DNA of 64,000 nucleotides from Aurantimonas marina (GTDB lineage Bacteria > Pseudomonadota > Alphaproteobacteria > Rhizobiales > Rhizobiaceae), in assembly GCF_017183135.1 (NCBI RefSeq), contig NZ_JADDXW010000014.1, forward strand, positions 1 through 64,000, given 5' to 3'. Shown piece after piece: positions 9,427 through 33,096 of the stretch. The notes beneath the pieces were generated by a model that did not search any database, was not told where the DNA came from, and worked only from the letters and a program-made list of their open reading frames with translations. The position numbers were made by a program, and so were the translations under genes. Each line of letters starts with the position of its first letter. Position 1 is the first letter of the stretch.

Positions 9427-9428
9427 GC

Positions 9429-16393: not shown

Positions 16394-17276
16394 TTGCCGT
16401 CCCCGTTGCCCCGTTCGCGTTGGCGCCGCTGTACGAAGCTTGCGGTTCCAAGAGAATAATTTGTTGATCTTGTGGAGCACGTGAGTTTGGGTCGACATCC
16501 AACCCCAGGCGCTTCAGCGTGTAATAAAGAAGAGCCCTGCGAACCTTCACTCGCGTTTTTCCCTCACGCATGCCGTAGTCCAACGCGATTACTTTCTTCT
16601 GAGCGTCGGAAAGACCAGGGTGCGGGCCAATTTCAAGCGTAACCTCGTCCTCCCAATCAGTGTCTGCGCCCGCTTCAATCTCACCCGGTTTCGCGCCTCG
16701 CGTCTCTAAGACGCGAGACAAAAGGAAATCCTTGAATACTCGGTCCACACCGCAAAATGCCCGAGCATGCCATCGAAACCCGTCAAAGCCCAGAGCATGC
16801 GGCGTGATCCAACGCCATCTCGGTTCGGAGCTGGACAGGGACTGGTATCGAATTTCTATGGCTTCGCATCGGCGAACTGCCGAAAGCATCGATCGCAAGA
16901 CCTCTGCCCTGATTCCTCGCGCAGGGCTGGGGGCGACACCAAACGACGGAAAATGCCCAAGCCACGCTTGGGACGGATCGAGGATGCCGTCAGCAACGGA
17001 GCGAAGCTGGCTGAGATACCCATCGGGGTCAGGCTTTAGGAAACAGGGTGTGAAGGCGTCACTCGCGATATAGCGCTTGGCGCTCTTGTCGTAGATCGCG
17101 TTATGGGGCGCCCGCTCCTGATAGAGAGTGAGGTCTTTGGACGCCTGCGGCACGGACACATCGAACATCTCGATGATATCGGCGCGGTTGATGCCTCCTT
17201 CCCAAAACAGCCGAAACTCGATGAATTCGAGCCGCCGCTCCACCCCCCATTTCAGTCCCGCGCCGGCGTGCATCAT
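16380..17276 (-). CDS. WYL-domain transcriptional regulator (BrxR/CapW-like)
   Basis: A 298-residue protein. Residues ~10-75 form a winged helix-turn-helix (RLEFIEFRLFWEGGINRADI, then VSVPQASKDL). Residues ~135-200 are a WYL domain (IEIRYQSL ... WRWITPHALGFDGFRWHARAFC), followed by a basic C-terminal extension. BrxR/CapW regulators with this layout repress BREX and other defence operons until a ligand is sensed. It is the first gene of the BREX-like operon and lies divergent to the AddB-like gene; a perfect palindrome at 17299-17315 is 23 bases upstream of the start. Two adjacent ATGs (17276, 17273) are possible. Confidence 0.87.
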   Translation of the reverse strand: MMHAGAGLKWGVERRLEFIEFRLFWEGGINRADIIEMFDVSVPQASKDLTLYQERAPHNAIYDKSAKRYIASDAFTPCFLKPDPDGYLSQLRSVADGILDPSQAWLGHFPSFGVAPSPARGIRAEVLRSMLSAVRRCEAIEIRYQSLSSSEPRWRWITPHALGFDGFRWHARAFCGVDRVFKDFLLSRVLETRGAKPGEIEAGADTDWEDEVTLEIGPHPGLSDAQKKVIALDYGMREGKTRVKVRRALLYYTLKRLGLDVDPNSRAPQDQQIILLEPQASYSGANANGATGTANARA

Positions 17277-17298
17277 GAAGCTTTTCTCCGATACGATA

Positions 17299-17315
17299 CA
17301 GATAGAAACTATCTG
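17299..17315. promoter_or_regulatory. Palindromic operator between two divergent defence operons
   Basis: A perfect inverted repeat CAGATAG-AAA-CTATCTG lies in the 174-base gap between the WYL regulator (minus) and the AddB-like gene (plus). The gap is A+T rich compared with its surroundings, and ATCTAT occurs twice more just to the right (17320-17340). It is the natural binding site for the WYL regulator, which would let one protein control both operons. Binding is inferred. Confidence 0.6.
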
Positions 17316-17450
17316 GACATATCTATACGATCCATCTATTTTCTATTCGCGAAGGGCGCTTGGGTCAAGGTGGAATGCGTCGCTATGGACGGGGTGCGTA
17401 GCCTCGTTCCAAAGAAAGCGCAGTTCCACGGGTTTAGGGCGGGAAAAGCG

Positions 17451-20111
17451 ATGGAAGCATCAGGGAGACGGACCATCGTCGCCCACGGGCGGCTAGCGAT
17501 GCGCGAGCACCGACTCGCCGCCGCGCGGGAACGCCAGCACGGCCTTCAGATCATGTCGTTCGAACGATTGGCGGTTCGCCTCGCCGGCGGGTTCGCCAGG
17601 CCGATTGACGATGAGAGTTTGCGCGCCGCGATCCAAACGGTCTTGCCCTCCACTCCGCTCGGCGAATTGGAAAGCATCAAACTGCTTCCCGGGATGGTCG
17701 ATGCGTCGGCCGACACCCTTCGCAAGGTGTGGCGGGCGGGAATCGACCTGTCGGCGCGCGCGGGGGACCATCCCCGCCTCGACTCCATCGCGCGGCTTGA
17801 AACCGCGGTGCTGGCGCAACTGCCGCCAGGGATGATGCGCCCGGCCGATCTCGTCGCTGCGGCCAGCCTGCGCCTTGGTCATGCCAAGGCGGTGCTCGGT
17901 CCGGTCGAGATCGTCGGCATCACCGAGCTTTCGCCCTGCTGGCGTCCACTCCTTCAGGCGCTGACCACCCATATCGCGGTGACGTGGACGGCGGGTCCGC
18001 GTTCCACACCCGCTTGGCTCGATGCAACGGGCGTGGCCGTCAACCGGACGGGTCCCCAAACGCCCGCCATCAGCGCCGTCAGCGCGGCCACGGCATACCA
18101 TGAGGCCATTGAAGCCATCCGCTGGGCCCGCAGCCTGTTGGCCTCCGGCGAGGCCCAGCCGGCGGACATCGCCATCGCAGGCGCGTCGACGGCCGAATAT
18201 GATGACCACTTCCTCTCACTTCGCGCCGACGCCAATCTCGATCTGCACTTCGTTCACGGGATCAAGGTTACGACAACCCGCGAGGGCCAAGCCGCCGCCG
18301 CGCTCGCCGATATCCTCATCCGAGGCCTGTCGCAGACGCGCATGCGCCGCCTGGCTGCGCTTTGCGGATCGGAAACAGGCCCGTTCCAGACCTTGCCTCC
18401 GGGTTGGATGCGCGTCCTTCCGTCGGACGCACCGCTGGCCTCTGCCGCTGCCTGGACGCGCTTGCTCAATCGCTTGACGGCGGCTGACTGGCCTGACGCG
18501 CAGGATCACACCGCGACACTGCGCGGCATCGTAGCGCTCCTCGCCAAGGGCCACACCGCCGCCGAGGAAATCGGCGCCGCGCTTCTCAACGGTCGAGCGC
18601 TGGCGATCTGGCGCAAGGCGCTTTTGGCCGGTCCCTCCGGATCGCTCGATGCGACACTCGAAATCTTAAAACAGGATGACGGCCTCGAGGGCTGTGTCTC
18701 CGTCGCCTGGATGCCGGCCAGCGCGTTGGCTGCGTCGCCGCGCCGGCTCGTTCGGCTCGTCGGTCTCAACTCCGCACGTTGGCCGCGCGGCATTTCGGAA
18801 GATCGCCTGATCTCCGACCACATCATTCCGACCGTCGAGCTTGATCCGCTCCCGGTCGGCGCGGCCGACCGGCGGGATTTCGAAACCATTCTCGCGACGA
18901 CCGAGCGCCAGATCATTCTGTCGCGGTCTCGCCGCGACAGCGAAGGCAGACTTCTCGGGCGCAGTGCTCTGCTCGGCGATCACGCCGGCGAGATCTATAT
19001 CCGCCGCAACGCGGTCCCACTCCACGCTTTCAGCGAAAGCGACCGGCTGATGGCGCGTCCGCAAGAGTTTGCGCATGAACCGCAGGCGATCAGCGCGACG
19101 GCCTGCTGGCGCAACTGGCACCGCAAGGAAATCACGCCGCACGATGGTCTAGTTCGGGCGGACCATCCTCTCCTGCTGGCCATCCTGGCCCGAACTCAGT
19201 CGGCCAGTTCGCTCAAGCTCCTTCTGCGAAGCCCTCTCGGCTTCCTCTGGAAATACGGGGTGCACTTGCGGATGCCCGAGAGCGGGACCGATCCCCTGGT
19301 TCTCGATGCGCTCGGCATGGGGGACCTCGTCCACATGACGCTCGACCTCGCGCTTCAAAAGTTGGAAGCGGCAGGAGGCCTCGCCAAGGCCGACGAAAAC
19401 CAGATCGCAGCGGCGGTGCAGAACGCTGCCGTCGAGGTTTCGGGCGTCTGGGAAAGCGAACGCGCCGTCCCGCCCGCTGTCATCTGGCGCCGGACTTTGG
19501 ATGAAGCGCGCCTGCTCACCAGCCGCGCGCTTACCTATGGTGATGAGCGTCTGCCGGACGCCCGGTCCTATGGCGAAGTGGGGTTTGGCGGAGCTAGCGC
19601 CAAATCGACTGCCGAGAGCCCGTGGGATCCGTCAACGATCGTCGAAATCCCCGACGCCGGGTTTCGAATTGCCGGCTACATTGATCGTCTCGACATCTCA
19701 GGCGATGGCAAGCGCGTCCTGGTCCGTGATTACAAGACCGGCAGGCCACCCAAGGACAACATCGGCCTGGACGGTGGCCGGGAATTGCAGCGCTGCCTCT
19801 ACGCCTTTGCCGTGAAGGCGTTGCTGGGCGCGGATGTCTCGATCAGCGCGTCGCTGCTCTATCCGCGCGACCAAATCGACCTGCAACTCGACGATCCCGA
19901 AACCACGCTGGTCGAGATCACCGGATATCTGCAGGCGGCGCGCATCAATCTGACGGCCGGCAACGCCCTCATCGGACCGGATACGGGCGGGACCTATGAC
20001 GACCTGGCCTTTGCGCTGCCGGCGAACGCGGGCGCCACCTATTGCAAGCGCAAGCTCTCGGCCGCGACCGAACTGTTTGGCGATGCTGCACAAGTCTGGG
20101 AGGCGCAGTAA
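17451..20111 (+). CDS. AddB-like PD-(D/E)XK nuclease protein
   Basis: An 886-residue protein. ATG 17451 is chosen because a weak GGGAAA site precedes it and the domain begins there (RTIVAHGRLAMREHRL); in-frame starts further upstream exist. The bulk resembles an inactivated SF1 helicase scaffold like AddB, without a clear Walker A. The C-terminal nuclease domain has VRDYKTGRPP (~759-768), the Asp and Lys of a RecB-type PD-(D/E)XK site. I do not see the four-cysteine Fe-S cluster of Bacillus AddB. The stop overlaps the start of the AddA-like gene (TAATG), so the two form an AddAB-like helicase-nuclease inside a defence operon rather than the housekeeping copy; that placement is inferred from context. 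Confidence 0.78.
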   Translation: MEASGRRTIVAHGRLAMREHRLAAARERQHGLQIMSFERLAVRLAGGFARPIDDESLRAAIQTVLPSTPLGELESIKLLPGMVDASADTLRKVWRAGIDLSARAGDHPRLDSIARLETAVLAQLPPGMMRPADLVAAASLRLGHAKAVLGPVEIVGITELSPCWRPLLQALTTHIAVTWTAGPRSTPAWLDATGVAVNRTGPQTPAISAVSAATAYHEAIEAIRWARSLLASGEAQPADIAIAGASTAEYDDHFLSLRADANLDLHFVHGIKVTTTREGQAAAALADILIRGLSQTRMRRLAALCGSETGPFQTLPPGWMRVLPSDAPLASAAAWTRLLNRLTAADWPDAQDHTATLRGIVALLAKGHTAAEEIGAALLNGRALAIWRKALLAGPSGSLDATLEILKQDDGLEGCVSVAWMPASALAASPRRLVRLVGLNSARWPRGISEDRLISDHIIPTVELDPLPVGAADRRDFETILATTERQIILSRSRRDSEGRLLGRSALLGDHAGEIYIRRNAVPLHAFSESDRLMARPQEFAHEPQAISATACWRNWHRKEITPHDGLVRADHPLLLAILARTQSASSLKLLLRSPLGFLWKYGVHLRMPESGTDPLVLDALGMGDLVHMTLDLALQKLEAAGGLAKADENQIAAAVQNAAVEVSGVWESERAVPPAVIWRRTLDEARLLTSRALTYGDERLPDARSYGEVGFGGASAKSTAESPWDPSTIVEIPDAGFRIAGYIDRLDISGDGKRVLVRDYKTGRPPKDNIGLDGGRELQRCLYAFAVKALLGADVSISASLLYPRDQIDLQLDDPETTLVEITGYLQAARINLTAGNALIGPDTGGTYDDLAFALPANAGATYCKRKLSAATELFGDAAQVWEAQ

Positions 20112-23100
20112 TGACCGCTGTAACGAAAGACCTTCGCGATGACGCGGCCCGCCGCAACGCGATCAGCGTGCATGATCGCTCGATCCTGGTCGAGGCTGGC
20201 GCCGGGTCCGGCAAGACGGCTGTCATGGCCGGTCGCATCGCGGTCATGCTGGCCGAAGGCATCGCGCCCAAATCCATCGCGGCGGTGACGTTCACGGAAC
20301 TGGCGGCCAGCGAGCTTCTGATCCGGGTGCGCGACTTCGTCAACGACCTCTCCGCCGGACAAATTCCGCCCGAACTGCGGATCGCCTTGCTCGGCGGTCT
20401 GTCGGACACCCAGAATGCCCAACTCGCGGCAGCGAACGTCGCGATCGACGAGATCACCTGCTCGACCATCCACGGCTTCTGCCAGCGTCTGATCAAGCCC
20501 TATCCGGTCGAGGCTGATATCGATCCGGGCGCCAGTGTGATGGATCGCAACCAGGCTGACGTCGCCTTTATCGAGATCGTCGAGGCCTGGCTGCGTGAGC
20601 AACTTTCAGGTGGCGAAGGCGGCATCATCGCTGAAATGGTGCTTCAGAATCCCGGTGAAACCGTCGGGCTGATCCACAAGATCGTCGCGAACCTGCGCCG
20701 ACGTCGAACGGTGTCCGCCCCGGCGGTCACTCCGCTGACGCCGCACCTTCAAACCTTCCTCACTGCAGCGGACTCCTTCGCTGAGTTCATCCGCACCGCG
20801 CCCGCAGTCGAGGAAGAAACAGCGATGATCGCCGAGCGGTTTGCCGAAATGGCGCAGGCCCTTGATGACGCTTCCGTTGCCGAAACGCCGGCTGGGCTGG
20901 TCCGCCTGCTGGTATCGCAGCCGCACCGCGATCTTTGCACCAAGAGCGGAGCCTTCTCCGCGTTCAAGAAGAAGGGCAAATGGGTCGACGCGGCCAAGCG
21001 CGAGGGCTTGGCCAAGGCTGATGGCGAGCGCCTCAACACGGCAGCCGAAGGGCACTATGCGGCGTGCCGCGAGGCATGGCAGACGATGCTCCAGAATGTC
21101 GCCAGCCGCGTGCTAGCCGATCTGATCGCCCAGGTTCAACCGGTTCTGCACCGCTTCCGCGACCACAAGCGTTCAGCGGCTCTGCTCGATTTCGACGACT
21201 TGATCTTCGCGGCGCGCGGCTTGCTGCGCGATCATGATGATGTTCGCCGGTCGCTGGCGGCGCGTTTCGCCCATGTCCTTGTCGATGAGTTTCAAGACAC
21301 CGACCCGCTACAGACCGAGATCTTCTGGCGTCTCTGCGGCGAACCGCCCGCAGACGGTTCGACCACCGACTGGTCGGCTTTTCAAATCCGTCCCGGCGCA
21401 CTGTTCCTGGTCGGCGATCCCAAGCAGGCGATCTATCGTTTCCGTGGCGCTGATGTCAGCGCCTATGTGCGGGCACGTGATGCGTTTCTCGCCCAGAATC
21501 CGGACCGTGTCCTGTCGATCTCGACCAACTTTCGCTCCTGCGCCCCCATTCTCACTTATGTGAACGAGCGCTTCGAGACGTTGCTATCGAGCGAGGGACA
21601 GCCGGGCTTCACCGCGCTCGACCCGTTCCACGCTGATCGCGGAGAAGCGCCGTGTGTCGCAGCCCTGGACGTCGCGGTCGCCGACGAAAACGGTAAGGCC
21701 ACGGCCGAACAGCAGCGTGACGCCGAAGCCGAAGCGGTCGCCGAGATGTGCGCCCGCCTGATCGGCAGCGAGATGATCCTCGATCGCCGGAGCGGCGCCA
21801 GCCGGGTCTGCCGGCCGGGCGACATCGCCTTGCTCGCCCCTACCGGCAGCGATCTGTGGCGCTATGAAGAGGCGCTCGAACGGCACGGCATTCCGGTCGC
21901 GACCCAGGCAGGCAAAGGACTGTTTCGCCGCCAGGAAATCCAGGACCTGATCGCGCTGACCCGCGTCCTCGCCGACCGGCGCGACACCCTCGCCCTAGGC
22001 GCGCTGCTGCGCGGCCCGCTCGTCGGCCTGACCGAGGAAGAGCTTCTTGACATCATCTGGGCGCTGCCGCGCTCCGAGGACTATCCGGACGCGCTGCCCC
22101 GGCTCGATCTCGGGGTCGATGCCAGCGGCATCGAGCACGCGCTTGCCCGGACGTCCATCGAGAAGCTGCAAGCGCTCTACCGTCGGACCAACAGCACAAC
22201 GCCGCACGACCTCCTGTCGCAAGCGATCGACGTGATGCGGGTACGCCCGATCCTGCTCGAACGGCACCGCGGACAAGCGGAACGCGCACTCGCCAATGTC
22301 GATCTCTATCTGAGCCTGACGTCCGCCTTTGCGGTTCGGGGCCTTCGCGCCTTTGCCGAGACCATGACGGCAGCCTGGACCGACGAATCGCGTGCAGTCG
22401 AGGGACGACCCGACGCTCAGGAGGAAGCCATCGCCCTCTACACCATGCACGCCGCCAAGGGCCTGGAATGGCCGATCGTGGTGCCCGTCAATACAATGAC
22501 GGGGATCATGGCGCCGGAAAGCGCCGTGACCGATCGCGACAGCGACATCTTCTATTGCCCGGTCTTTGGCGTCCGGCCGGTCGGGTATGACGACGCCCGC
22601 GACGCGGAAAAAGCCGAGCTCGACCGCGAGCGCATCCGGCTCTGGTATGTCGCCGCCACACGGGCGCGCGAGTTGCTTGTCCTGCCTCGGCTTGACGCCG
22701 CACCGTCGAAATCGGCCTGGATCTCCCTCCTCGATCTGTCGCTCGGCGAGCTTCCGGCGCTCGATCTGTCCCATCTCTCGCCGGACGTGGGAGTAGCACC
22801 GGCCGGCCAGAGCAACCCGCAGACGCGGGAGATTTTTTCGGCGGAAGCTGCTGCCATCGCAGACCGTCATCGTCGCCTGACCTGGCTAGCGCCAAGCCGC
22901 GACGAAACCAGCGCCGGGCCTGTTGTGACCCCCGAAGCGGCAGAAATCTGGGCAGCAAGCGACCCAGGTCAGCCTCATGGCGAAGCCGCCCTCGCTAGCA
23001 TCCAGGGCGGACGCGAACGTGGTCTCATCCTGCACAAGATTCTCGAGGAGGTTCTGACCGGCGAAACGCCCGACGATGTGGCGTCTCTGACCGAACGCGC

Positions 23101-23515
23101 GCAGGTGCTCATTGCCGCGATCGACAAGCCGGTGGTTGATGATCCCGCCCAAGGGCTTTCGCCGGCCGAGCTCGCGGGCTGTGTGGCGCGCACCCTCGCG
23201 TTGCCCGAAATCGCCGAGCTTCGGCCGACCCTTGCGCCGGAGTTTCCGGTCTATGCCTCGGCGTTTGTCGACGACCTTGAACAGGCAACCGCAGGCATCG
23301 CGGACGCCATCAGCTTTGGGCCTGATGGAAAACCGCAGGTCGTCATCGACTGGAAGAGCGATGTTCAACCAAGCCCAGAGATCATCGAGCACTACCGCGC
23401 CCAGGTCCGGAATTATCTGGTTATGACCGGGACCGAACGGGGGCTGATCGTCCTCGTGACGTCGGGCGAAATCCTCACGGTTATGCCTTCGCCAGTCGCC
23501 GCGGTCGCGGCGTAG
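20111..23515 (+). CDS. AddA-like UvrD helicase with C-terminal nuclease
   Basis: An 1134-residue protein starting at ATG 20111, overlapping the previous stop. SF1A helicase motifs: EAGAGSGKTA (29-37), FDDLIF, LVDEFQDTDPLQ, GDPKQAIYRFRG, FRS, and MHAAKGLEWPIV with WYVAATRARE. The C-terminus has a RecB/AddA nuclease motif VIDWKSD (~1079), where Asp and Lys are catalytic. Such proteins unwind and degrade double-strand ends. Together with the AddB-like partner it would process linear phage DNA. The next gene starts 23 bases later. The assignment to defence rather than general repair rests on location. Confidence 0.83.
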   Translation: MTAVTKDLRDDAARRNAISVHDRSILVEAGAGSGKTAVMAGRIAVMLAEGIAPKSIAAVTFTELAASELLIRVRDFVNDLSAGQIPPELRIALLGGLSDTQNAQLAAANVAIDEITCSTIHGFCQRLIKPYPVEADIDPGASVMDRNQADVAFIEIVEAWLREQLSGGEGGIIAEMVLQNPGETVGLIHKIVANLRRRRTVSAPAVTPLTPHLQTFLTAADSFAEFIRTAPAVEEETAMIAERFAEMAQALDDASVAETPAGLVRLLVSQPHRDLCTKSGAFSAFKKKGKWVDAAKREGLAKADGERLNTAAEGHYAACREAWQTMLQNVASRVLADLIAQVQPVLHRFRDHKRSAALLDFDDLIFAARGLLRDHDDVRRSLAARFAHVLVDEFQDTDPLQTEIFWRLCGEPPADGSTTDWSAFQIRPGALFLVGDPKQAIYRFRGADVSAYVRARDAFLAQNPDRVLSISTNFRSCAPILTYVNERFETLLSSEGQPGFTALDPFHADRGEAPCVAALDVAVADENGKATAEQQRDAEAEAVAEMCARLIGSEMILDRRSGASRVCRPGDIALLAPTGSDLWRYEEALERHGIPVATQAGKGLFRRQEIQDLIALTRVLADRRDTLALGALLRGPLVGLTEEELLDIIWALPRSEDYPDALPRLDLGVDASGIEHALARTSIEKLQALYRRTNSTTPHDLLSQAIDVMRVRPILLERHRGQAERALANVDLYLSLTSAFAVRGLRAFAETMTAAWTDESRAVEGRPDAQEEAIALYTMHAAKGLEWPIVVPVNTMTGIMAPESAVTDRDSDIFYCPVFGVRPVGYDDARDAEKAELDRERIRLWYVAATRARELLVLPRLDAAPSKSAWISLLDLSLGELPALDLSHLSPDVGVAPAGQSNPQTREIFSAEAAAIADRHRRLTWLAPSRDETSAGPVVTPEAAEIWAASDPGQPHGEAALASIQGGRERGLILHKILEEVLTGETPDDVASLTERAQVLIAAIDKPVVDDPAQGLSPAELAGCVARTLALPEIAELRPTLAPEFPVYASAFVDDLEQATAGIADAISFGPDGKPQVVIDWKSDVQPSPEIIEHYRAQVRNYLVMTGTERGLIVLVTSGEILTVMPSPVAAVAA

Positions 23516-23538
23516 GCGGCAGGCGCTGGGGAGGATCG

Positions 23539-26500
23539 ATGCACGCACGAACAGACGCCACCGCTCCCGGGCAGGACGACCTCTTCACCGAGGAGGTATC
23601 GCTGCCCCTCCCGGCGCGAATGGCCGTCGAGGGCAAAGTCTTGGGCAGCACAACGCGCCAGCAGGCGGTGCCATCGACAGAAGCCATTTGCCGGCTCAAG
23701 CCTTTCACGGTTCGGCGTGTCGGAGGATTTGAGACGACGCTGTCAAACGGCCAGACCCTCATCATACTCAGCGGAAAGACGGCGACTAAGCTGGATGCTG
23801 ACCTCATCCTGCTCGTACCCGAGGCTCAGCACCCGAAGGAGATCAAGGAAGCGCTGGAGCGTGGAGAAGGGCGTTGGCTCCGTCCCACACCCCTCAATCC
23901 CGCTCTGGTCAGCGTTCCAGATATGACGGCCCGGCTTGCGGCCGTTACCGTGTCCTGGGATGACGCCTTCCATCTGCGCGAAGGCCGGGCGGCCGTGGAC
24001 GGCAAGCCAGCCGTTCCCGGATTGAGACGACCCCAGATTGGCGCGCTCCACGCGGCCCTCGCGCACGCGACACGTTCGACCGAGGCCGCGACTATCGTCA
24101 TGCCGACCGGCACGGGCAAGACAGAGACCATGCTGGCTCTGAACGCTCGCCAGCAATTTGACCGGTTGCTGGTCGTGGTTCCAACCGACGCCCTTCGCGA
24201 ACAGATCGCCGGGAAATTCGAGACCTTTGGCGTCCTCAAGAGCCAGGCGTGCCTCGACGCATCAGCCGACTATCCCGTGGTGACCCGTCTTGCGCACATC
24301 CCCTCGTCTGTTGCGGAGGTCGATCAGAGCTTCGACACGGCCAACGTCATCGTCACCACCATGCACATCGCCGGGCGGGCAGACCCCCAGGTTCAAGAAC
24401 AGATGGCGGCGCGAGCCGCAGCGCTGTTCATCGATGAGGCCCACCATATCGGCGCCCGGACATGGTCGGAATTTCGCGGTCTCTTCGTCGACCGCAAACC
24501 GCCGATCCCGATCGTCCAGTTCACCGCCACCCCGTTTCGCGAGGACGGGCGGCGCGTGGACGGTGAGTTCATCTATACCTACCCCCTGAAGAAGGCGCAG
24601 GAAGAAGGCTATTTCAAACCCATCCGGTTCGAGGCCGTCTTCGGACTTGATCGTCCTGACGCCGACTTGGCGATTGCCGAAAAGCTTGGCGAAGTCCTTA
24701 CCGAGGATCTCGCGGCTGGCCTCAACCACCTCGCCATGGCGCGTTGCAGTACGATCGAACGCGCAAAGCACTTGCACCGCCTCTACACCGAGACCTATCC
24801 GGTACATCGCCCCGTCATCGTCCACAGCCAGCAGCCGCTGCGCGAGAGACGCGAAAATCTTGCGGCGCTTCGACGGTTCGAGAGCCGGATCATCGTCTGT
24901 GTCGACATGCTGGGTGAAGGATTCGATCTTCCTGAGCTGAAAATCGCGGCTCTGCACGACCACCACAAAAGCATCGCGGTCACGATCCAGTTTGTTGGCC
25001 GCTTCACTCGCCAAGACCCGACCTTGGGTGATGCGACCGTCATCGCAAACACCGGCATCGACGACATCGATCGATCGCTGGCGAAGCTCTATGCCGAAGA
25101 CGCTGATTGGAACGCGCTGGTTGAGGCGCTGAGTTCGGCCAAGATCGAGCGCCAGGTCCGGCGTGCCGAGATGTTCAAAGGCTTCACCGGCGATCTTGAC
25201 GACATCCCGTTGCAAACCCTCGAGCCGAAGATGAACGCGGTCGTGTACCGGACTTCGTGCGAGAGCTGGGATCCCTTCCAAGCCGAAGATCTATACGACC
25301 CCGGCTTCTACCTCGGCATGAAAATCAATCCGCACCAGCGCGTGGCGATCTTCGTCACCCGGGCGGAGGAACAGGCCCGCTGGACGACGGCGCAGCACGC
25401 CATCAACGTGACGTGGGACCTGCATATGCTGCATTGGGACCAGGCAAGCGGCCTGCTCTATATCAGCAGTTCGGCCAAAGGACCGTTCGACCGGCTGGCC
25501 AAGGCCGTTTGCGGCGAGACGGCCCGCCGCGTAGAGGGCGAAGATGTCTTCCGCAGCCTGCATGGCTTCAAACGCCTGATCCTGCGCAACCTCGGCCTCA
25601 CTCACCATCAGGGCCGCGGCGTTCGCTATTCCATGTATATGGGTGTCGATGTGGCCGACGGGCTGGATAGCGCCAAATCCCAATCACGGATCAAGAACAA
25701 CGTCTCCGCCACCGGGTTTCTCGACGGCTCGCCGGCTTCGCGAGGCTGCTCGGCCAAAGGCAAGTTCTGGTCGATCTCCAAAGTGCGTGATCTCACCGAC
25801 TGGGTCGACTGGTGTCAGGATGTCGGCCGCGCCGTGAATGATCCCAGCATCACCACCGACGGTGTGTTCAAGAGCGCTATGCGACCGCGCCAGATCAGTG
25901 ATCGCCCGGCGGTCCCGCCCGTGGCGATTCATTGGCCGGAATCGCTTCTGATGCAGATCGAAGACCGCATCGAAATTACCTTCGGCGACAAACCAGTCCT
26001 GTTCACCGAATGCGACATCGAACTGCTCGACAATGCGCGAACCGGGCCGCTGCGCTTTGCCGTGCGAAGCGACGACCAGTCCGCCGAGTTCGAGATCGTC
26101 TTTGCCGATGGCGGAGCGCGCTACCCCCAGCGCAACGGCCCCAAGGCGACGATCAAGGTCGGCAGCAAGATCCAGACGCTTTCGGAGTCCTTCGCCGATG
26201 ATGCGCCGCAGATCGACTTCGGTGACGGCTCCCTGCTGATCTACAGCCACCTCTACGCCCTGCCTGAAGGCGAAATGGTTCAACCCTATCCGCACGAGAA
26301 GATCGAGGTGGGGGACTGGTCGAAAACCAACATCCGCGCCGAAGCGCAGGGTGTCGAGAAGCGGGTCGATTCGGTCCAGCGGCTGGTCATCGAAACCTTG
26401 TTGGCCGACACCGAGCCCTATGACATCATCTTTGACGACGACGGCAAAGGTGAAATCGCCGATGTGGTCGCATTGCGCATCACCGACAGCGTCGTGTCGG

Positions 26501-26880
26501 TGACCTTGTTTCATTGCAAATATTCGAGCACCGCAACGCCCGGCGCTCGGCTCAACGACCTCTACGAGGTGTGCGGGCAAGCTCAGAAATCGGCCAGGTG
26601 GCGTGATCGGCCCAACCGGATGCTCCAGCACATGCTGAAGCGCGAACAGATGCGGCGCGACAGGGGGCTCAGCTCGCGGATCGAGCGGGGTTCGGCGGCC
26701 ATGATCAAGAAGCTGAAAGCCGGCTGGCAGGACCATCGCTTCGAATACGACGTTCGCATTGTGCAGCCTGGTCTTTCCCGCCAAGCCATAGGCGAGGAGG
26801 GTCTGCATCTGCTTGCCGGCGTCGAGACATATCTGCTGGAAACCCGCGCCATGCGCCTGCGGATCATCGGTAGCGACTGA
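23539..26880 (+). CDS. SF2 DEAD/DEAH helicase fused to restriction-type nuclease domain
   Basis: A 1113-residue protein. Residues ~170-530 are an SF2 helicase: MPTGTGKTETM (~188-197), LFIDEAHH (~297-304), FTATPF and QFVGRFTRQD. The C-terminal half includes a beta-strand pattern IIFDDDGKGEIADVV followed by VTLFHCKYSS (~967-993); the D-E/D-x-K spacing resembles a PD-(D/E)XK endonuclease core. The N-terminal ~120 residues are unrecognised. Type III-like helicase-nucleases of this build cut translocated DNA. It lies between the AddAB-like pair and the DUF6361/PLD/SNF2 trio and is probably in the same transcript. I cannot name the family. Confidence 0.75.
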   Translation: MHARTDATAPGQDDLFTEEVSLPLPARMAVEGKVLGSTTRQQAVPSTEAICRLKPFTVRRVGGFETTLSNGQTLIILSGKTATKLDADLILLVPEAQHPKEIKEALERGEGRWLRPTPLNPALVSVPDMTARLAAVTVSWDDAFHLREGRAAVDGKPAVPGLRRPQIGALHAALAHATRSTEAATIVMPTGTGKTETMLALNARQQFDRLLVVVPTDALREQIAGKFETFGVLKSQACLDASADYPVVTRLAHIPSSVAEVDQSFDTANVIVTTMHIAGRADPQVQEQMAARAAALFIDEAHHIGARTWSEFRGLFVDRKPPIPIVQFTATPFREDGRRVDGEFIYTYPLKKAQEEGYFKPIRFEAVFGLDRPDADLAIAEKLGEVLTEDLAAGLNHLAMARCSTIERAKHLHRLYTETYPVHRPVIVHSQQPLRERRENLAALRRFESRIIVCVDMLGEGFDLPELKIAALHDHHKSIAVTIQFVGRFTRQDPTLGDATVIANTGIDDIDRSLAKLYAEDADWNALVEALSSAKIERQVRRAEMFKGFTGDLDDIPLQTLEPKMNAVVYRTSCESWDPFQAEDLYDPGFYLGMKINPHQRVAIFVTRAEEQARWTTAQHAINVTWDLHMLHWDQASGLLYISSSAKGPFDRLAKAVCGETARRVEGEDVFRSLHGFKRLILRNLGLTHHQGRGVRYSMYMGVDVADGLDSAKSQSRIKNNVSATGFLDGSPASRGCSAKGKFWSISKVRDLTDWVDWCQDVGRAVNDPSITTDGVFKSAMRPRQISDRPAVPPVAIHWPESLLMQIEDRIEITFGDKPVLFTECDIELLDNARTGPLRFAVRSDDQSAEFEIVFADGGARYPQRNGPKATIKVGSKIQTLSESFADDAPQIDFGDGSLLIYSHLYALPEGEMVQPYPHEKIEVGDWSKTNIRAEAQGVEKRVDSVQRLVIETLLADTEPYDIIFDDDGKGEIADVVALRITDSVVSVTLFHCKYSSTATPGARLNDLYEVCGQAQKSARWRDRPNRMLQHMLKREQMRRDRGLSSRIERGSAAMIKKLKAGWQDHRFEYDVRIVQPGLSRQAIGEEGLHLLAGVETYLLETRAMRLRIIGSD

Positions 26881-26937
26881 TGCCCACGTTCGTTCAACAC
26901 CGGCGCTGGTCGCCCGAAGACAGAATTGCGGGGGCCA

Positions 26938-28122
26938 ATGTCGTCACTTGCCTGGATTGATTTCGACGAAGCCGAGCGTCAGCGGGCGCAACGGATCATG
27001 GCGCTGTTTCAGGAACGCGAGACCCGCGACGAACTCGGTTTGGGCGGCATTAGGGATTCCATTGCTGACCACCTGTTCCCCGGGACCAGCACCATCCAGA
27101 CGCGCTTGCGCTACATGCTCTTCATCCCCTGGCTCTTTCAGATGCTGGAAGGCTCGGCGGCCGGGCCGGATCAGCTCGCGACCGAAGCCCGCGCGCTAGA
27201 AAACAGGCTGGCCAACGCACTCAAGGCAGGCGGAGAATCGAACGGCATCATCGGCCGCGATGCTGGCGCTGATCTTCAGAGGCTCCCCAGCTCCGTCTAT
27301 TGGGCCGGACTAGGCACTTGGGGCATCCGTCTCTTTCCGGGTTCGACCGACAATCTTTTCTCCTCCATGCGCCACCTCCAGCGCAACCGGCCGCGGGTCC
27401 GCGAAAGTGAAGATGCCGCGTCGGAAGCCCAAGCCCTTCAAATCTGGACGCCCGTGCTGCCGCCCCGGCCCAAGGAAATCCTTGAAGCGGCGCGCTTCCG
27501 CCTCACGCCTGATGAGGCCCAGTTCATCATTGACCGGCTGGTGGCGCAGCAACCCCGCAGCCTGCTGGCGTTCCTTGCCCGCACCGGCAGCGGCAAAGCC
27601 GACTGCCGCTATATCTGGGAGCATCCGCATCTCGCGGATTTCCCCGGTGATACCCGCTCGCTGGTCGGTCATGGCGAGTTGTTTTCGAGCGTGATGCACG
27701 GCGCCTCGCTCCTCTACAATCTGCTTCTAAGCCAGATGCGAGAGAAGCCTGACTGGATCGAGGAGTATCAATCGCGCCTGCAGGAATGGCGCGAGGGCTT
27801 GGATATGCCGACGATCCGCGCATGGTCGCTCGACACCTTCTGGCAGGCCATTGATCATCCCGCGAACCGCATCCGGCCTGCCGCAAAGCGCTTCGTCACC
27901 GAATGGCTGGCGCTGGTTCGGTCCGGTGACGTTGGCGAAGGCCGTCTGACACCCGCCGCGCGCATGGTGCAGGATCGCGAGCGACGGCTGAAGACCAGCC
28001 AGTCGCGGTTCGCCAACCGGGCTGTGCGGGACCGCTGGACCGGCGCGTCGGGCGTTGAGCGGCTGTCGTTCCGCTGGGCGCAGGGCAGATCGCACCTGCG
28101 GGATCTCGCCGATGCTCAATAG
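26938..28122 (+). CDS. DUF6361 family protein (ZacA-like?)
   Basis: A 394-residue protein starting at ATG 26938 after a G-rich site. The N-terminus (LAWIDFDEAERQRAQRIM, then RDELGLGGIRD and LFPGTSTIQTRLRY) matches my memory of DUF6361, a family found with PLD-like and helicase genes in defence loci. The rest is helical, with many Trp and Arg. No catalytic motif is obvious. Its stop lies 11 bases inside the PLD-like gene. I recall a three-gene Azaca system with unknown, PLD-like and helicase components, which this trio matches in order; this was not checked. Confidence 0.7.
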   Translation: MSSLAWIDFDEAERQRAQRIMALFQERETRDELGLGGIRDSIADHLFPGTSTIQTRLRYMLFIPWLFQMLEGSAAGPDQLATEARALENRLANALKAGGESNGIIGRDAGADLQRLPSSVYWAGLGTWGIRLFPGSTDNLFSSMRHLQRNRPRVRESEDAASEAQALQIWTPVLPPRPKEILEAARFRLTPDEAQFIIDRLVAQQPRSLLAFLARTGSGKADCRYIWEHPHLADFPGDTRSLVGHGELFSSVMHGASLLYNLLLSQMREKPDWIEEYQSRLQEWREGLDMPTIRAWSLDTFWQAIDHPANRIRPAAKRFVTEWLALVRSGDVGEGRLTPAARMVQDRERRLKTSQSRFANRAVRDRWTGASGVERLSFRWAQGRSHLRDLADAQ

Positions 28123-29968
28123 GCCGACGCTCGATCCCGAGACCCGTGTGCTCTACGGCGACAGCCTCCAGCCTCCGCCGGGCTATGTCTTCGACGCTGC
28201 GGTCGCGACAACCTTCTCGCTCGATTTCGAGACGGCGCTGGCCGCTCCGGTGAGCCTGGCCTTATTCGCCGCGGAGAATCGTGACGACATTCTCTCGCAT
28301 CCATTAGCTCTGCTCGAGGGGGCCGAACGGATTGCGGGACGTCTCGTGGTTTTTGCCGATGCCGGGCATCTCCACGCCCAAAGCCGACCTCACTCGCGCC
28401 TCTGTTCGCTTCTGGAACGGATCATCGTCGAGGTCGCCGCGCCCCGTGGCGGCGCATTCCATCCGAAGATGTGGGTCTTGCGCTATCGGCCGACCCGTGC
28501 CGAGGATCCAACATTGTTGCGGCTCCTCGTCCTCTCGCGAAACCTTACGCGGGACCGTTCCTGGGACATCTCACTCCGCCTCGATGGCGAGCTTACGCGC
28601 CGACCCGACACCAAGAACCGGCCACTTTTCGATCTGCTCACTCGTCTGCCGGACCTGGCGGTCGCCGGCATATCCGATGAAGCGCGCGCCCTGACTGTCG
28701 AGATTGCCGAGGACGCCCGCCGCGCCAAATGGACGATGCCGGACCGCTTTGAAGACGTGGCCTTCGCCCTTAACGGGTTTGGCGGCAAGATCTGGCAGCC
28801 GGCGGCGTGCACGCGACTGGGAGTGATCTCCCCCTTCTGCGACACCGACGCACTCGTTCTGTTGGCGGGTCTGCCGACGGCGGAAAAGCCGATCATCATA
28901 AGTCGGCCCGATCAATTAGCCTGCATCGATACAGCCACGCTCGACACCTTCGAACGCGTTTCCGTTCTCGACGAGATGGCCGCCAGCGAAGACGGCGAGG
29001 AAGTCTCCGCAAGCGCGCTGCAGGGACTCCATGCGAAAGCCTTCATCGCCGAGATCGGCTGGGACACCGTCCTAACGATCGGGTCAGGCAATGCGACCCG
29101 ACCGGCCCTGCTCTCGGGCAACAATGTCGAGCTGTTCGCCTCGCTTCAGGGCAAACGCTCCAAGGTCGGCAGCATCGAGCAAATTATGGGAGAGAAAGGC
29201 TTTGGTCGCCTGACCCGCGCCTTCGTCCCCAGTGAATTGGACCCCGTCGATCCAGCAGTGGTTACGGCTGAGGCGCGGCTTGATGACGCCCGCCGCGCCC
29301 TATGCCGAGGCGGGCTGCGGCTGCGCTGCGAACGGATCGAGAGCGAAGACGCCGGAGAGAATCCGTGGCGCGTCTGGCTGACGCCGTCGGAACCTCTGCC
29401 GCTCAAGGGCATCGGTTCCCTTAGCGCATGGCCAATCACACGCGGCGACGGTCATGCCTGCCACGTCCTGTCGGCATTGCGGTCTGGCGAGTCGGTCGAT
29501 CTGGGGGCCATGCCCATGGTCGACCTCACTCGCTTCCTTGCATTCCGGCTGACAGACGAGAACGAAAAGGCGTCCGTGCTGTTCAGCACCAGCTTGATGA
29601 TGGATGGGCTTCCGGCCGAACGACATGCCGCCATTCTGCGCTGGGTGATCGACAGCCGCGACGCCTTCTTCCGTTACCTCCGGCTCTTGCTCTCCGAACT
29701 CGGTGACCCGTTCAGCGCAGCCCTGGCGGCGCAAGATGGCTCGGGAGCCACAGCCTGGACCGCAGCGGCTGATGATGCGCCGCTGCTGGAAGACATGGTC
29801 CGTGCCCTGTGCCGCGGCGGCGAACGGCTCCACGCCATCGAGCGGCTGATGACCCGCCTGGAGGCTGGGAACGACACTGGCGCCGACCCCATCCCGGCCG
29901 ATTTCCGCACTTTGTGGGATGCCTTCCGCATCGCGCTCCAGGATCAGGGCGCAGACTATGCCGGATAA
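28112..29968 (+). CDS. Phospholipase D-like HKD nuclease candidate (ZacB-like?)
   Basis: A 618-residue protein with ATG 28112 overlapping the DUF6361 gene by 11 bases. Two HxK half-sites are visible: GAFHPKMWVLRY (~residue 115-125) and LQGLHAKAFI followed by TIGSGNAT (~305-330), the pattern of paired phospholipase D (HKD) motifs. In bacterial defence proteins these often form a nuclease active site across the pair. No signal peptide is seen, so it is cytoplasmic. Its stop overlaps the helicase start by 11 bases, so the three genes are tightly coupled. Substrate unknown. Confidence 0.75.
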   Translation: MLNRPTLDPETRVLYGDSLQPPPGYVFDAAVATTFSLDFETALAAPVSLALFAAENRDDILSHPLALLEGAERIAGRLVVFADAGHLHAQSRPHSRLCSLLERIIVEVAAPRGGAFHPKMWVLRYRPTRAEDPTLLRLLVLSRNLTRDRSWDISLRLDGELTRRPDTKNRPLFDLLTRLPDLAVAGISDEARALTVEIAEDARRAKWTMPDRFEDVAFALNGFGGKIWQPAACTRLGVISPFCDTDALVLLAGLPTAEKPIIISRPDQLACIDTATLDTFERVSVLDEMAASEDGEEVSASALQGLHAKAFIAEIGWDTVLTIGSGNATRPALLSGNNVELFASLQGKRSKVGSIEQIMGEKGFGRLTRAFVPSELDPVDPAVVTAEARLDDARRALCRGGLRLRCERIESEDAGENPWRVWLTPSEPLPLKGIGSLSAWPITRGDGHACHVLSALRSGESVDLGAMPMVDLTRFLAFRLTDENEKASVLFSTSLMMDGLPAERHAAILRWVIDSRDAFFRYLRLLLSELGDPFSAALAAQDGSGATAWTAAADDAPLLEDMVRALCRGGERLHAIERLMTRLEAGNDTGADPIPADFRTLWDAFRIALQDQGADYAG

Positions 29969-32900
29969 GCGTTTTGAAGCCGCAACCGCGATCGCGCCGC
30001 TCAAGGCTTTCCAGCGTCGTACTGTCGATTATGTGTTTGATCGGCTTTACGGCGATCAGGACCCCATCCGACAGTTCCTGGTCGCAGATGAGGTCGGGCT
30101 GGGTAAGACCATGGTGGCCCGCGGCGTCATCGCGCGGACCATCGAGAAGCTCTGGGACACGACCGACCGGATCGACATCCTCTATATCTGCTCCAATCAG
30201 GCGATCGCGGCGCAGAACCTCAATCGCCTGAACGTCCTCAACCGGCGCGAACTGGCGCTGCCGACGCGGATGACGCTGATCCCGCTTCAGGTGCGTGGTG
30301 ACCAGGGTCTGGACGCCAACAAGGTCAATTTCATCAGCTTGACGCCGGGCACGACCTTCGACCTGCGATCAACTACGGGCGTGACGCGCGAACGGGCCCT
30401 CCTCCTGCGGATGCTGGAGGATCGCGTCTCACGGCCGCGCGGTCTTCACAATCTGCTCCAGGTCACCGCCGGCGTCGACGGTTGGAACGGCGCGGTCCGC
30501 GATCTGACGCTCGACGGCGTCGATCAGCGGATCATCGACCGCTTCCGCCGCGACGTTGAATCCGACACCGTCTTGTTCGAAGAGCTTGAGGCCGTCTGCG
30601 ATCTCTTCCCGCGTCGTCGGGAATCCTACCCCTATGAGCTGGGCCAGCGTCGCAACGCGCTGGTCGGCAGGCTGCGGGGCAAGCTCTCGCACGCCTGCAT
30701 CGACGCGCTGAAGCCTGACCTGATCATTATGGACGAGTTTCAGCGCTTTCGGGATTTGCTGCACGGCGAGACCCCAGCCGCCGATCTTGCGCGCGAGCTG
30801 TTCGATTACTCCGATGGCAACGGCCATGCGGCGCGCACGCTGCTGCTGTCGGCGACGCCCTATCGAATGTTGACGCTGTCGGGTGATGAACCCGATGACG
30901 GCGAACATTACCGAGATTTTCTGGAGACCTTGTCGTTCCTTTACGGCCGCACCAACGGCCCACAGATCGCAGCCACGCTGGAAGCCGAGATGCGGCAATT
31001 CCGGGGCTTTCTCCACGCCCTTCCAGACGCCCGGCCCGAAGCGATCACTGCCCGCCGCAGCGTTGAGCGGCACCTCCGCAAAGTCATGGCGCGTACCGAG
31101 CGTGTTGCCAGCACGATCGATCGGGATTCGATGGTTGGCGAGCCTTCGATGGCGATCACTATTCAGCCCACGGATCTGCGCCAGGCAGCCGTCGTCTCGG
31201 ATGTGGCGCGCGCCCTCGATGCGCCCGAGATTACCGAATACTGGAAATCAGCGCCCTATCTGCTGAATTTCATGCGGGATTACGCCCTCAAGCGCCTTTT
31301 GAAAGACAACCTCGACAAGCCCGCCCCTAACCTGCGCAAAGCCCTCGTTCACGCCCGTTCGGCCGAGCTCAACCACGACCGCCTCGATACCTATGAACCG
31401 CTCGAGCCGGCCAACGGCCGGATGCGCGGCGTTATGGACGATGTGTTCGGAGACGGTCTCGATCAGCATCTCTGGATCCCACCTTCCCTGGCCTACTATG
31501 GGCCTGATCGGCAGGGACCGCCCCTGACCAAGGCGCTGATCTTCTCCTCCTGGTCGATGGTCCCGGATGCGATCGCGGCCATCTTGTCCTACGAAGCCGA
31601 ACGGCGAATGGGGGTTGGCACAGCCGGTCAGCGTTACTTCGGCCATGTGCGTCCTCGCCCTATCCAGTTCAGGCAGGATCAAGGGCGGCTTGTGGCCATG
31701 CGCGCGATGCACTTGGTGTATCCGTCTCCGACGCTGGCGCGCCTAGCCGATCCGCTTGCGATCTTCGCTGCTCATCCCGAACCCCTGTCGGTCGAAGCCA
31801 TGCGCAAGGCCGTCGCCGAGCGTCTGCGCGAAAGTGTCGAAGCGCTAACAGAGCGATCGGGAGAAATTGCCGACGGTCGAGATTGGGAATGGGCCGCACC
31901 GGCCGCTATCGACGCAATGGCGGATGCAAACTCCGTCGCCTGGGTGGATTCGCCTTACGGCTTCGCCACGCTTGGCAACGAGGAGGGCTTCAAGGAGCAC
32001 GTCGCCGAGCTGCGGACAGTGGCGACTGACCGCCAGTTCGGGCCGGTGCCTGAAACACTGATCGACCTGCTCGTTGACGTCTCGCTGGGAAGTCCCGCGG
32101 TATGTGCCCTGCGTGCCTTGCGTCGGATCGCACCGGACCTTGCTTGGGATGATCACCGGCTTCTGAAGGCCGCCAACCAGGTCGCCTGGGGCTTTCGCAC
32201 GCTCTTCAACCAGCATGATGCCGTCGCCCTCCTGCGCAAAGACGATGATGATCGATACTGGCGCCGCGTCCTGACCTACGGCGTGGAGCATAATCTCCAG
32301 GCCGTTCTTGACGAATATGTTCACTACCTTGTCGATGCCGAAGGGCTCGGCGCACGGCCATCTGCAGAGCGCGTCGCCGGGGTCGGCAAAGCCATCTCGG
32401 AGGCCTTGGCAATTCGTCCATCACAGATCGACGTCGAGGATCCGACGGTCGATGGGAAGAAGCTGGTCATCAACAAGTTCCAAATGCGCGGCCGCTTCGC
32501 CATGCGCCTAGCCGACTACAAGGACGAGGAAGGCGGCGCGGCGCGCCTGGGAAGCGTGCGTGATGCTTTCAACTCGCCCTTTCGTCCTTTTGCCCTCGCC
32601 ACAACCTCGGTCGGACAGGAAGGGCTAGACTTCCACCCCTATTGCTACCGCGTCTATCACTGGAATCTTCCCGGCAACCCGGTCGATCTGGAGCAGCGTG
32701 AGGGGCGTGTTCATCGCTTCAAGGGCCATGCGATCCGACTAAACTTGGCGTATCGACAGATCGACGTCGTCAGAGGCCAGGTCGCAATCCCTGACGATCC
32801 CTGGAAAACGATGTTCGACGCCGCCCGAGCCGAAACCGAGGTCGATACAGATCTCATTCCGTATTGGATCTACGAAGGCCCGGTCAAAGTCGAGCGGCGT

Positions 32901-33086
32901 GTTCCCATGCTCCCGTTCAGCCGCGAGGTTCGCCGGCTGGAATGGCTCAAGCGAAGTCTGACAGTCTATCGCCTGGCCTTTGGTCAACCCCGCCAGGAAG
33001 ACCTGCTGGAGTATCTCCGCAGTCTGCTCGGAACCGACACCGCCGCCGAGGATCTCGCGGAGCTGCAAATCCGACTCGAGCCATAA
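29958..33086 (+). CDS. SNF2-like SF2 helicase (ZacC-like?)
   Basis: A 1042-residue protein, ATG 29958. The N-terminal RecA lobe has VADEVGLGKTMV (~42-53), LIIMDEFQRF (motif II reads DEFQ rather than DEAH, ~258) and LLLSATPYRML. The C-terminal lobe has TSVGQEGLDFH and EQREGRVHRFKG (motif VI), typical of SNF2/RapA-type translocases. A ~250-residue insert separates the lobes. It is the last gene of the plus-strand operon; the next gene is convergent 10 bases away. As the helicase of the putative Azaca-like trio it would supply DNA translocation. Confidence 0.8.
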   Translation: MPDKRFEAATAIAPLKAFQRRTVDYVFDRLYGDQDPIRQFLVADEVGLGKTMVARGVIARTIEKLWDTTDRIDILYICSNQAIAAQNLNRLNVLNRRELALPTRMTLIPLQVRGDQGLDANKVNFISLTPGTTFDLRSTTGVTRERALLLRMLEDRVSRPRGLHNLLQVTAGVDGWNGAVRDLTLDGVDQRIIDRFRRDVESDTVLFEELEAVCDLFPRRRESYPYELGQRRNALVGRLRGKLSHACIDALKPDLIIMDEFQRFRDLLHGETPAADLARELFDYSDGNGHAARTLLLSATPYRMLTLSGDEPDDGEHYRDFLETLSFLYGRTNGPQIAATLEAEMRQFRGFLHALPDARPEAITARRSVERHLRKVMARTERVASTIDRDSMVGEPSMAITIQPTDLRQAAVVSDVARALDAPEITEYWKSAPYLLNFMRDYALKRLLKDNLDKPAPNLRKALVHARSAELNHDRLDTYEPLEPANGRMRGVMDDVFGDGLDQHLWIPPSLAYYGPDRQGPPLTKALIFSSWSMVPDAIAAILSYEAERRMGVGTAGQRYFGHVRPRPIQFRQDQGRLVAMRAMHLVYPSPTLARLADPLAIFAAHPEPLSVEAMRKAVAERLRESVEALTERSGEIADGRDWEWAAPAAIDAMADANSVAWVDSPYGFATLGNEEGFKEHVAELRTVATDRQFGPVPETLIDLLVDVSLGSPAVCALRALRRIAPDLAWDDHRLLKAANQVAWGFRTLFNQHDAVALLRKDDDDRYWRRVLTYGVEHNLQAVLDEYVHYLVDAEGLGARPSAERVAGVGKAISEALAIRPSQIDVEDPTVDGKKLVINKFQMRGRFAMRLADYKDEEGGAARLGSVRDAFNSPFRPFALATTSVGQEGLDFHPYCYRVYHWNLPGNPVDLEQREGRVHRFKGHAIRLNLAYRQIDVVRGQVAIPDDPWKTMFDAARAETEVDTDLIPYWIYEGPVKVERRVPMLPFSREVRRLEWLKRSLTVYRLAFGQPRQEDLLEYLRSLLGTDTAAEDLAELQIRLEP

Positions 33087-33096
33087 GCCCAAAGGC

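Follow-up and report, generated by a model that had tools for sequence, protein, structure and literature searches.

The question raised by this locus is whether six adjacent nuclease and helicase genes of Aurantimonas marina form one system or bring together parts that also occur apart. The genes lie at positions 17451-33086 of the window, by which we mean the whole stretch of 64,000 nucleotides analyzed (contig NZ_JADDXW010000014.1, positions 1 to 64,000 of the forward strand). Reading the open reading frames (ORFs) of the window gave six long, closely spaced ORFs, all on the plus strand: an AddB-like protein (886 amino acids, 17451-20111), an AddA-like protein (1134 amino acids, 20111-23515), a superfamily 2 (SF2) helicase (23539-26880), and the Azaca proteins ZacA (26938-28122), ZacB (28112-29968), and ZacC (29958-33086). 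The ATG of AddA overlaps the AddB stop by one base, gaps of 23 bases (AddA-SF2) and 57 bases (SF2-ZacA) flank the SF2 gene, and ZacA/ZacB and ZacB/ZacC alike overlap by 11 bases. The first-pass annotation had placed six co-directional genes here, as the ORFs and starts read from the sequence bear out, and had proposed that they may be a single large system that unwinds, scans, and degrades invading DNA. Comparison across genomes did not uphold this proposal and showed, at the level of sequence, a near-constant AddA-AddB pair with intact active-site residues, swapping partners, and a shared element upstream of AddB at loci with a WYL-domain regulator. We lean towards reading the core of the locus as a dedicated, portable defence AddAB with exchangeable partners, which would degrade DNA flagged by the partner systems.

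A near-constant AddAB pair with swapping partners

The locus sample comprised the best 80 of 280 AddB relatives, less L109, which carries the same DNA as L108; the remaining 79 loci have AddB at least 65% identical. The left flank was readable in 75 of them and the right flank, taken as at least 600 bases, in 68. Genes were labelled with our own ORF caller and BLAST clusters, with a PADLOC check of chosen proteins that supports the labels for Hma, type III restriction-modification (RM), and HerA. BREX and Shango-like genes were taken from record annotation; the Shango-like and ubiquitin-like labels rely on that annotation (TerB/ATPase/helicase and multiubiquitin/ThiF/DUF6527, respectively) together with a Pfam scan of one ThiF protein. 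AddB escaped the ORF caller in L033 and L079, yet the L033 sequence does contain an AddB ORF. All counts come from related, non-independent genomes sampled by AddB similarity.

AddA adjoins AddB in 78 of the 79 loci, the exception (L080) ending at a contig edge, and what follows AddA varies. SF2 comes next in 21 of the 68 readable right flanks, with Azaca behind it in 8, alone in 7, and with a convergent Azaca in 6. The flanks without SF2 carry co-directional Azaca (16 loci), convergent Azaca (2), HerA (2), a UvrD-like gene for an 893-amino-acid protein (2), the same gene plus Azaca (2), convergent Shango-like genes (3), convergent ubiquitin-like genes (1), or no labelled partner (19). Co-directional Azaca is thereby present in 26 of 68 loci and all six genes stand in order in 8 of 68, so the order AddB-AddA-SF2-Azaca does recur elsewhere, and the six-gene arrangement exceeds chance because the AddA-AddB pair is kept in 78/79 loci and the full order in 8/68. 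The same counts speak against a single large system: SF2 lacks co-directional Azaca in 13 of 68 loci, co-directional Azaca lacks SF2 in 18, and neither stands co-directionally in 29. Gaps measured from match to match are short, 17-87 bases for AddA-SF2 and 22-178 bases for AddA-ZacA. The 893-amino-acid UvrD-like protein was seen after AddA in L082 (6308-8989), L099, L045, and L047, and in L082 and L099 it replaces SF2 before Azaca.

On the left side, a WYL gene is accompanied by Hma in 22 of the 75 loci, by BREX in 11, by type III RM in 5, and by a mixed label in 1, and stands alone in 8. The mixed label, 'Hma+RMIII' in L063, depends on matches of 27-28%, and PADLOC assigns the 593-amino-acid protein of that locus as a type III methylase. 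Two of the loci labelled as WYL alone, L033 and L093, hold BREX genes (BrxC 1790 bits, PglXI 642 bits) and a ZorD gene (1045 bits), respectively. Left flanks without a WYL label carry ubiquitin-like genes (9), Shango-like genes (3), Hma (1), or nothing labelled (15). AddB abuts the last Shango-like gene in all three genome loci and in two of three plasmid loci, with 528 bases between them in the third (L027). The ubiquitin-like cassette (multiubiquitin, ThiF/DUF6791, DUF6527), with a UvrD-like gene of its own, lies upstream of AddAB on the same strand in L022, L051, L064, L066, L083, L086, L094, and L100.

AddB was found in 63 records of the plasmid collection, 24 of them at 60-80% identity. 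Among 11 plasmid loci studied in detail, SF2 is present in 3 and Azaca in 3, 4 have no labelled right partner, and 1 has a short flank. SF2 itself, at 78-79% identity, occurs in seven plasmid records, in all of which AddB lies ~3.4 kb upstream (judged from coordinates, and from annotation for three). In 318 genomes of the class, SF2 had one close match besides the window (80%, G165), which neighbours AddAB, and a single weak one (25%, G234). The pair was also seen in records named Bryocella elongata (L089), Candidatus Poribacteria metagenome-assembled genome (MAG; L105), and Planctomycetaceae MAG (L107); it may move between phyla, with MAG binning as a caveat.

An AddB tree of 91 rows required, at the fewest, 36 changes of the right-hand state, 33 of the left-hand state, 17 of SF2, and 15 of co-directional Azaca, in a quick tree with 19 of 87 inner branches weakly supported and with change counts taken without a shuffled baseline. 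Closely related AddAB pairs differ in their right partners (SF2, Azaca, HerA, or UvrD-like) and in their left ones (Hma, BREX, type III RM, once ZorD-like, or else Shango-like or ubiquitin-like genes), and the tree neighbours L067 and L090 have Hma and BREX left arms, respectively. The DNA borders of these changes can be followed directly. L032, the closest relative with SF2, is 94.3% identical to the window over 17467-26951 and unrelated beyond; its remaining 3.1 kb holds no Azaca except a 14-base start, and its left arm carries another Hma set (helicase 36% and methylase 28% identical to those of the window). L033, which with L032 makes up the pair of relatives closest to the window, matches at 90.6% over 16504-23519 (WYL, AddB, AddA), with a BREX left arm and Azaca absent. 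Homology to L036 ends at 23504 and restarts at 26939, one base into ZacA, so that SF2 is cleanly skipped. In both L032 and L037, long AddB and AddA ORFs are accompanied by Azaca remnants. Based on the tree and these alignments, we concluded that partner exchange is recent and that its borders are sharp in the DNA. In L037, Azaca is reduced to the ZacA start and the ZacC end (16092-17031), beside the long AddB and AddA ORFs.

Even draws of genomes gave the association of AddB with ZacA outside the locus sample. Among 385 genomes of the class, a strong AddB was found in 8 (that of G164 in two pieces), a strong ZacA in 7, and both in 6, with weak or fragmentary matches in 4 and 1 further genomes left uncounted. 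When the genome of the window is excluded, 5 are shared among 6 ZacA and 7 AddB genomes (hypergeometric P 1.9e-9, overstated because relatedness is ignored). The two genes are adjacent on one contig in the genome of the window, G274, and G370; in G124 the AddA end precedes ZacA at a contig edge and AddB was not found there, in G159 the two are seemingly convergent across a contig break, in G164 AddAB and Azaca are separate, and in G387 the arrangement is indeterminate. The 398 genomes of the phylum draw held a strong ZacA in 5, a strong AddB in 3, and both in 2, leaving 3 of the 5 ZacA genomes without AddB; in one with both (G642) Azaca is convergent toward SF2, and in G760 the gene ahead of ZacA is another AddA-like one. 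Azaca also occurs without this AddAB in the stretches examined of a Cronobacter dublinensis plasmid (L031), L154, and L155, and the genomes of the latter two gave no AddB match. Because of the class and phylum draws, we conclude from gene content that Azaca and AddAB are associated in the class and that Azaca is nevertheless independent of AddAB. In the Azaca locus L156, a different AddA-like gene (5758-9273, 28% identity), without this AddB, overlaps the ZacA start.

Identity of the AddAB pair, the SF2 helicase, and the Azaca trio

The first-pass annotation had called the first two genes AddAB-like, and families and conserved residues agree. In Pfam, AddB matches PDDEXK_1 (67 bits), its PD-(D/E)XK nuclease forming the C-terminus, and no Walker A motif was seen in its aligned N-terminus. 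AddA matches UvrD-helicase (183 bits) and UvrD_C (81 bits), with PDDEXK_1 at 21.4 bits, slightly below the cut-off of 22. The pair thus has the broad AddAB composition of a UvrD helicase and C-terminal nuclease in one subunit and a second nuclease in the neighbouring subunit. The match of AddA to TIGR02784 (addA_alphas) is nearly full length at 281.6 bits, below the cut-off of 860.75; none of the NCBIfam AddB models matched AddB, for which TIGR03623 alone scored, at 31 bits against a cut-off of 299.6. A housekeeping addB-addA pair on another contig of the same genome reaches 1075 bits with TIGR02786 and 1311 bits with TIGR02784, and the island AddA is 24% identical to the housekeeping AddA of the same cell over 789 columns. 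A 22-row tree places it in a clade with 14 other island AddA proteins, apart from the housekeeping copy, with long branches that leave the exact position unsure. A search of solved structures with AddA returned 'ATP-dependent helicase/nuclease subunit A' at the top (3u44, E 1.5e-34). No solved structure was matched by sequence with the AddB profile; with an AlphaFold model of AddB (mean pLDDT 65.9), the top five Foldseek matches were AddB chains (E 1.4e-14 to 4.9e-13) at low TM-scores (0.18-0.24).

Residues that we take, from general knowledge of these families, to be the Walker and nuclease motifs are intact. The Walker-type residues of AddA (G31, G33, G35, K36, T37, D393, and E394) are present in 88 of 88 aligned rows, and its nuclease residues (H976, D1066, D1081, K1083, Q1099, and Y1103) are all found in every one of the 78 complete AddA rows. 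Ten further rows consist of two that ended before the nuclease region (L035 and L075) and eight UvrD-like proteins of 22-24% identity, encoded upstream of AddB, that were grouped into the AddA cluster (L022, L066, L071, L083, L086, L087, L094, and L100). In AddB, H628, D745, D760, K762, Q780, and Y784 are invariant (42/42). The AddA ORF spans at least 1090 amino acids in 67 of the 71 AddA with flank. We conclude that genes one and two encode a distant AddA/AddB pair whose helicase and nuclease residues are intact and which is distinct from the housekeeping AddAB. The pair shares with the alphaproteobacterial housekeeping enzyme an AddA with helicase and nuclease, a nuclease AddB whose predicted fold may be AddB-like, and adjacent genes with AddB first; it differs in falling below the TIGR02784 cut-off, in matching none of the AddB models, in its presence on the 63 plasmid records, and in its place beside defence genes. 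In L043, L051, and the plasmid locus L011, a long AddB ORF is accompanied by an AddA broken into two frames; these may be decaying copies or sequencing errors. A viral origin of AddB was also considered, and none of 140 pattern matches in viral contigs was confirmed.

The third gene encodes an SF2 helicase with a RadD/ResIII/XPB-like core (ResIII, 70.6 bits), as first annotated. Its supposed endonuclease domain is less secure. Eight C-terminal residues (D967, D968, G971, E972, D975, H992, K994, and Q1014) are invariant in 11 sequences, as are the same columns in 13, and the predicted model, weak overall (mean pLDDT 54, C-terminal blocks mostly 65-89), has an alpha/beta order at the C-terminus. 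Pfam gave no credible nuclease match for this domain, and Foldseek with the model returned helicase-type proteins, with no nuclease-only entry among the 50 matches listed. Because of that Foldseek outcome, the case for a PD-(D/E)XK-like domain (D975, H992-x-K994, and Q1014) draws on the residues and on the secondary structure that the weak model predicts, and we regard the domain as putative. More distant SF2 relatives, at 32-44% identity, lie on plasmids without AddAB in all seven loci examined below 45% identity (L014-L020), in L014 and L015 among other defence-type genes; they are possibly a one-gene defence family of their own. A viral origin of SF2 was dropped as an idea; at least three viral-contig loci had been found, one at 36% identity.

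The likeness of the last three genes to Azaca, noted in the first-pass annotation, was confirmed by strong PADLOC matches, in order over 26938-33086, to ZacA (445.6 bits), ZacB (575.2 bits), and the SNF2-like helicase ZacC (1153.9 bits), which give the full Azaca gene set. In Pfam, ZacA matches DUF6361 (284 bits) and ZacB is unmatched. ZacB has two conserved HxK motifs with a conserved N after each, which we read as PLD-type. On these profile matches the trio is Azaca, and in the distant Azaca sets (L055, L059, L065, L077, L043, L104, and L108) all 10 proteins scanned match Zac models. The trio thus resembles known Azaca in content, order, and overlapping genes and differs in lying downstream of, and co-directional with, an AddAB-like pair and SF2. 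No Zac label appeared for AddA, AddB, or SF2 among the PADLOC matches listed (25 of 48 for AddA and all for AddB and SF2). Beyond ZacC, and convergent with it, lies a gene for a HipA_C-type protein of 622 amino acids (33097-34965), a homologue fragment of which occupies the same position in L036.

The WYL regulator and the left arm

The first-pass annotation left out a divergent WYL gene and the left arm behind it, both of which seem to be part of the same arrangement. The predicted WYL-domain regulator (16380-17276, minus strand; WYL 36.3 bits) is transcribed away from AddB. It is followed on the minus strand by a DUF499 ATPase that is HmaC-like (13646-16498; DUF499 29.5 bits, cut-off 23, without a PADLOC match), a protein with no family match in the Pfam and PADLOC scans (12657-13787), an HmaB-like N6/N4 DNA methylase (9429-12644; N6_N4_Mtase 31 bits, HmaB 108 bits), a small ORF without a family match, possibly spurious, that overlaps the methylase gene (8926-9558), and a BrxHI/HmaA-like SNF2 helicase (6152-8917; BrxHI/II 331 bits, HmaA 315 bits). 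One HmaB and one HmaA from other AddAB loci score 1066 and 1587 bits, respectively, as against 108 and 315 bits here. The left arm of the window, with its DUF499 ATPase, methylase, and SNF2 helicase, is best described as distantly related to Hma and BREX, and the full set of the window as an Hma-like left arm, WYL, AddAB, SF2, and Azaca. In many Hma left arms a 1409-amino-acid sacsin/TmtA-like protein lies between HmaA and HmaB, as in L059 (1135-5364) and similar loci. A complete Gabija system (2116-6062, plus strand; GajA 1015 bits, GajB 831 bits) occupies the left part of the same island in the window.

Of the 75 loci with a left flank, 47 have a divergent WYL gene no more than 309 bases from AddB. 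A 15-base element, GATAAAAACTATATG, was found within the 600 bases upstream of AddB, at three mismatches or fewer, in 42 of 53 WYL loci and in none of 34 non-WYL loci, against a mean of 0.0 in shuffled WYL loci; at four mismatches the specificity is lost (47 WYL, 3 non-WYL, shuffles 3.0). The element is shared by loci whose left arms are Hma, BREX, or type III RM, and the bases after it are usually GGACA. Its position in the window is 17301-17315, and its extended 19-base form (17305-17323) is the sole such site in the 64 kb at five mismatches or fewer. A 17-base palindrome, CAGATAGAAACTATCTG (17299-17315), overlaps the conserved element at 17301-17323, and together they make up a candidate operator-like site in the WYL/AddB intergenic region (17299-17323, without assigned strand). 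The palindrome, at four mismatches or fewer, is present in 18 of 53 WYL loci, none of the 34 loci lacking WYL, and 1 of 87 shuffled sequences; a palindrome search restricted to the WYL-AddB gaps was uninformative, the gap borders from tblastn being variable. These patterns point to one regulator family heading both arms. WYL/BrxR regulators, in the part of the published survey available to us (PMC9122601), likewise head defence operons with inverted repeats upstream; the island WYL gene differs in being divergent from AddAB and in keeping one element across differing left arms. The terms UvrD, AddAB, and RecB do not occur in that survey.

Possible roles of the AddAB pair

If the core is a dedicated, portable defence AddAB, the partner systems would recognise non-self DNA and then nick, cut, or stall it, and AddAB would load on the ends, unwind the DNA, and degrade it. 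SF2 and Azaca would be alternative helicase-nuclease branches acting on the same intermediates, and WYL would repress both divergent arms until a signal such as single-stranded DNA or nucleotides appears. In a wider form of this proposal, which we hold tentatively and judge somewhat short of an even chance, the mobile AddAB may serve as a DNA-processing hub for Hma, BREX, type III RM, Shango-like, Azaca, ubiquitin-like, and perhaps Zorya systems, often under one WYL switch, with Azaca and SF2 as exchangeable branches. There is experimental precedent for a RecBCD/AddAB-class enzyme as a shared hub in the cooperation of Druantia III with Zorya II, as far as the accessible portion of that report extends (PMC13192584); the enzyme there is the chromosomal repair enzyme, whereas here it is a dedicated portable copy. 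The partially available account of auxiliary or backup effectors beside BREX and DUF499/Hma (PMC12839542) likewise describes extra nucleases near the same core systems, including PD-(D/E)XK and SF2-fused ones. The island AddAB differs from those effectors in being common to Hma, BREX, type III RM, Shango-like, and Azaca loci, and the main text of that paper contains none of the terms AddAB, AddA, AddB, RecB, and UvrD. The open-access literature on AddAB with defence systems, in the portions available, yielded no description of the pair as a defence partner, which is not proof of novelty.

Several points weigh against the reading of a portable AddAB with working partners. Since unrelated systems gather in defence islands, proximity by itself is weak evidence; more weight attaches to the short gaps and to the region shared by WYL and AddB. 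The upstream element was derived from the same loci in which it was counted and is a description, not an independent test. Despite its five top matches to AddB chains, the AddB model reaches moderate confidence and its TM-scores are low, and some copies of the pair are broken, with AddA split in L043, L051, and L011. Loci without a labelled partner on the left (15/75) or right (19/68) suggest that AddAB may work alone. That last point leads to an unlikely but serious alternative, in which AddAB, joined by WYL at loci that have it, forms a complete defence system by itself and addAB a homology anchor around which neighbours recombine without functional coupling. The frequent exchange on the AddB tree suits it, as do the distant pairs L029 and L030 (38-40% identical), whose annotated direct neighbours are only toxin-antitoxin-type or unlabelled; it sits poorly with the tight co-directional runs into SF2 and ZacA, with the abutment of AddB and the Shango-like gene, and with a WYL element common to different left arms.

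That AddAB, SF2, and Azaca act only together as one six-gene machine is very improbable and already largely refuted by co-occurrence. The first-pass annotation had named, as evidence that would count against it, independent occurrence of the AddAB/SF2 part and the trio in most genomes together with a terminator at 26880-26938. Such independent occurrence was found; no terminator-like site is listed there in a scan of 16000-34500, a scan of little power because its 10 sites compare with 12.7 expected in shuffles. In addition, the 64 kb gave no Rfam family match, and no tRNA was found in the window. The absence of a listed terminator ahead of ZacA, the recurrence of the gene order in 8/68 loci (two of which, L042 and L046, have identical AddB and carry SF2 and Zac homologues at 83-85%), and strong AddB in 6 of 7 strong-ZacA genomes of the class draw (one in two pieces; 5 of 6 without the genome of the window) would agree with such a machine. 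Set against these are SF2 without co-directional Azaca, co-directional Azaca without SF2, the Azaca remnants in L032 and L037, and Azaca without this AddAB in L031, L154, L155, and 3 of 5 ZacA genomes of the phylum draw. A protective role, in which AddAB repairs host breaks made by partner nucleases or shields host DNA from end-sensing systems such as Gabija, is improbable. RecBCD activity shields self-DNA from Gabija in Pseudomonas aeruginosa, according to the part of that study available (PMC12407980), and the Gabija genes of the window are 11 kb away; however, a housekeeping AddAB is already in the cell, and a scan of a few neighbour proteins gave a Gabija-type protein in one other AddAB locus (L101, GajA).

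If the portable AddAB does process DNA flagged by its partners, it would give one answer to how systems such as BREX and Hma, which mainly recognise or mark DNA, dispose of phage genomes in these bacteria, and it would allow a direct test of the idea that bacterial immunity generally shares a step carried out by a RecBCD/AddAB-class enzyme. One may speculate that a second AddAB could function while phages block the housekeeping enzyme. Current annotations of Azaca, Shango, BREX, and Hma would then miss two genes in such loci.

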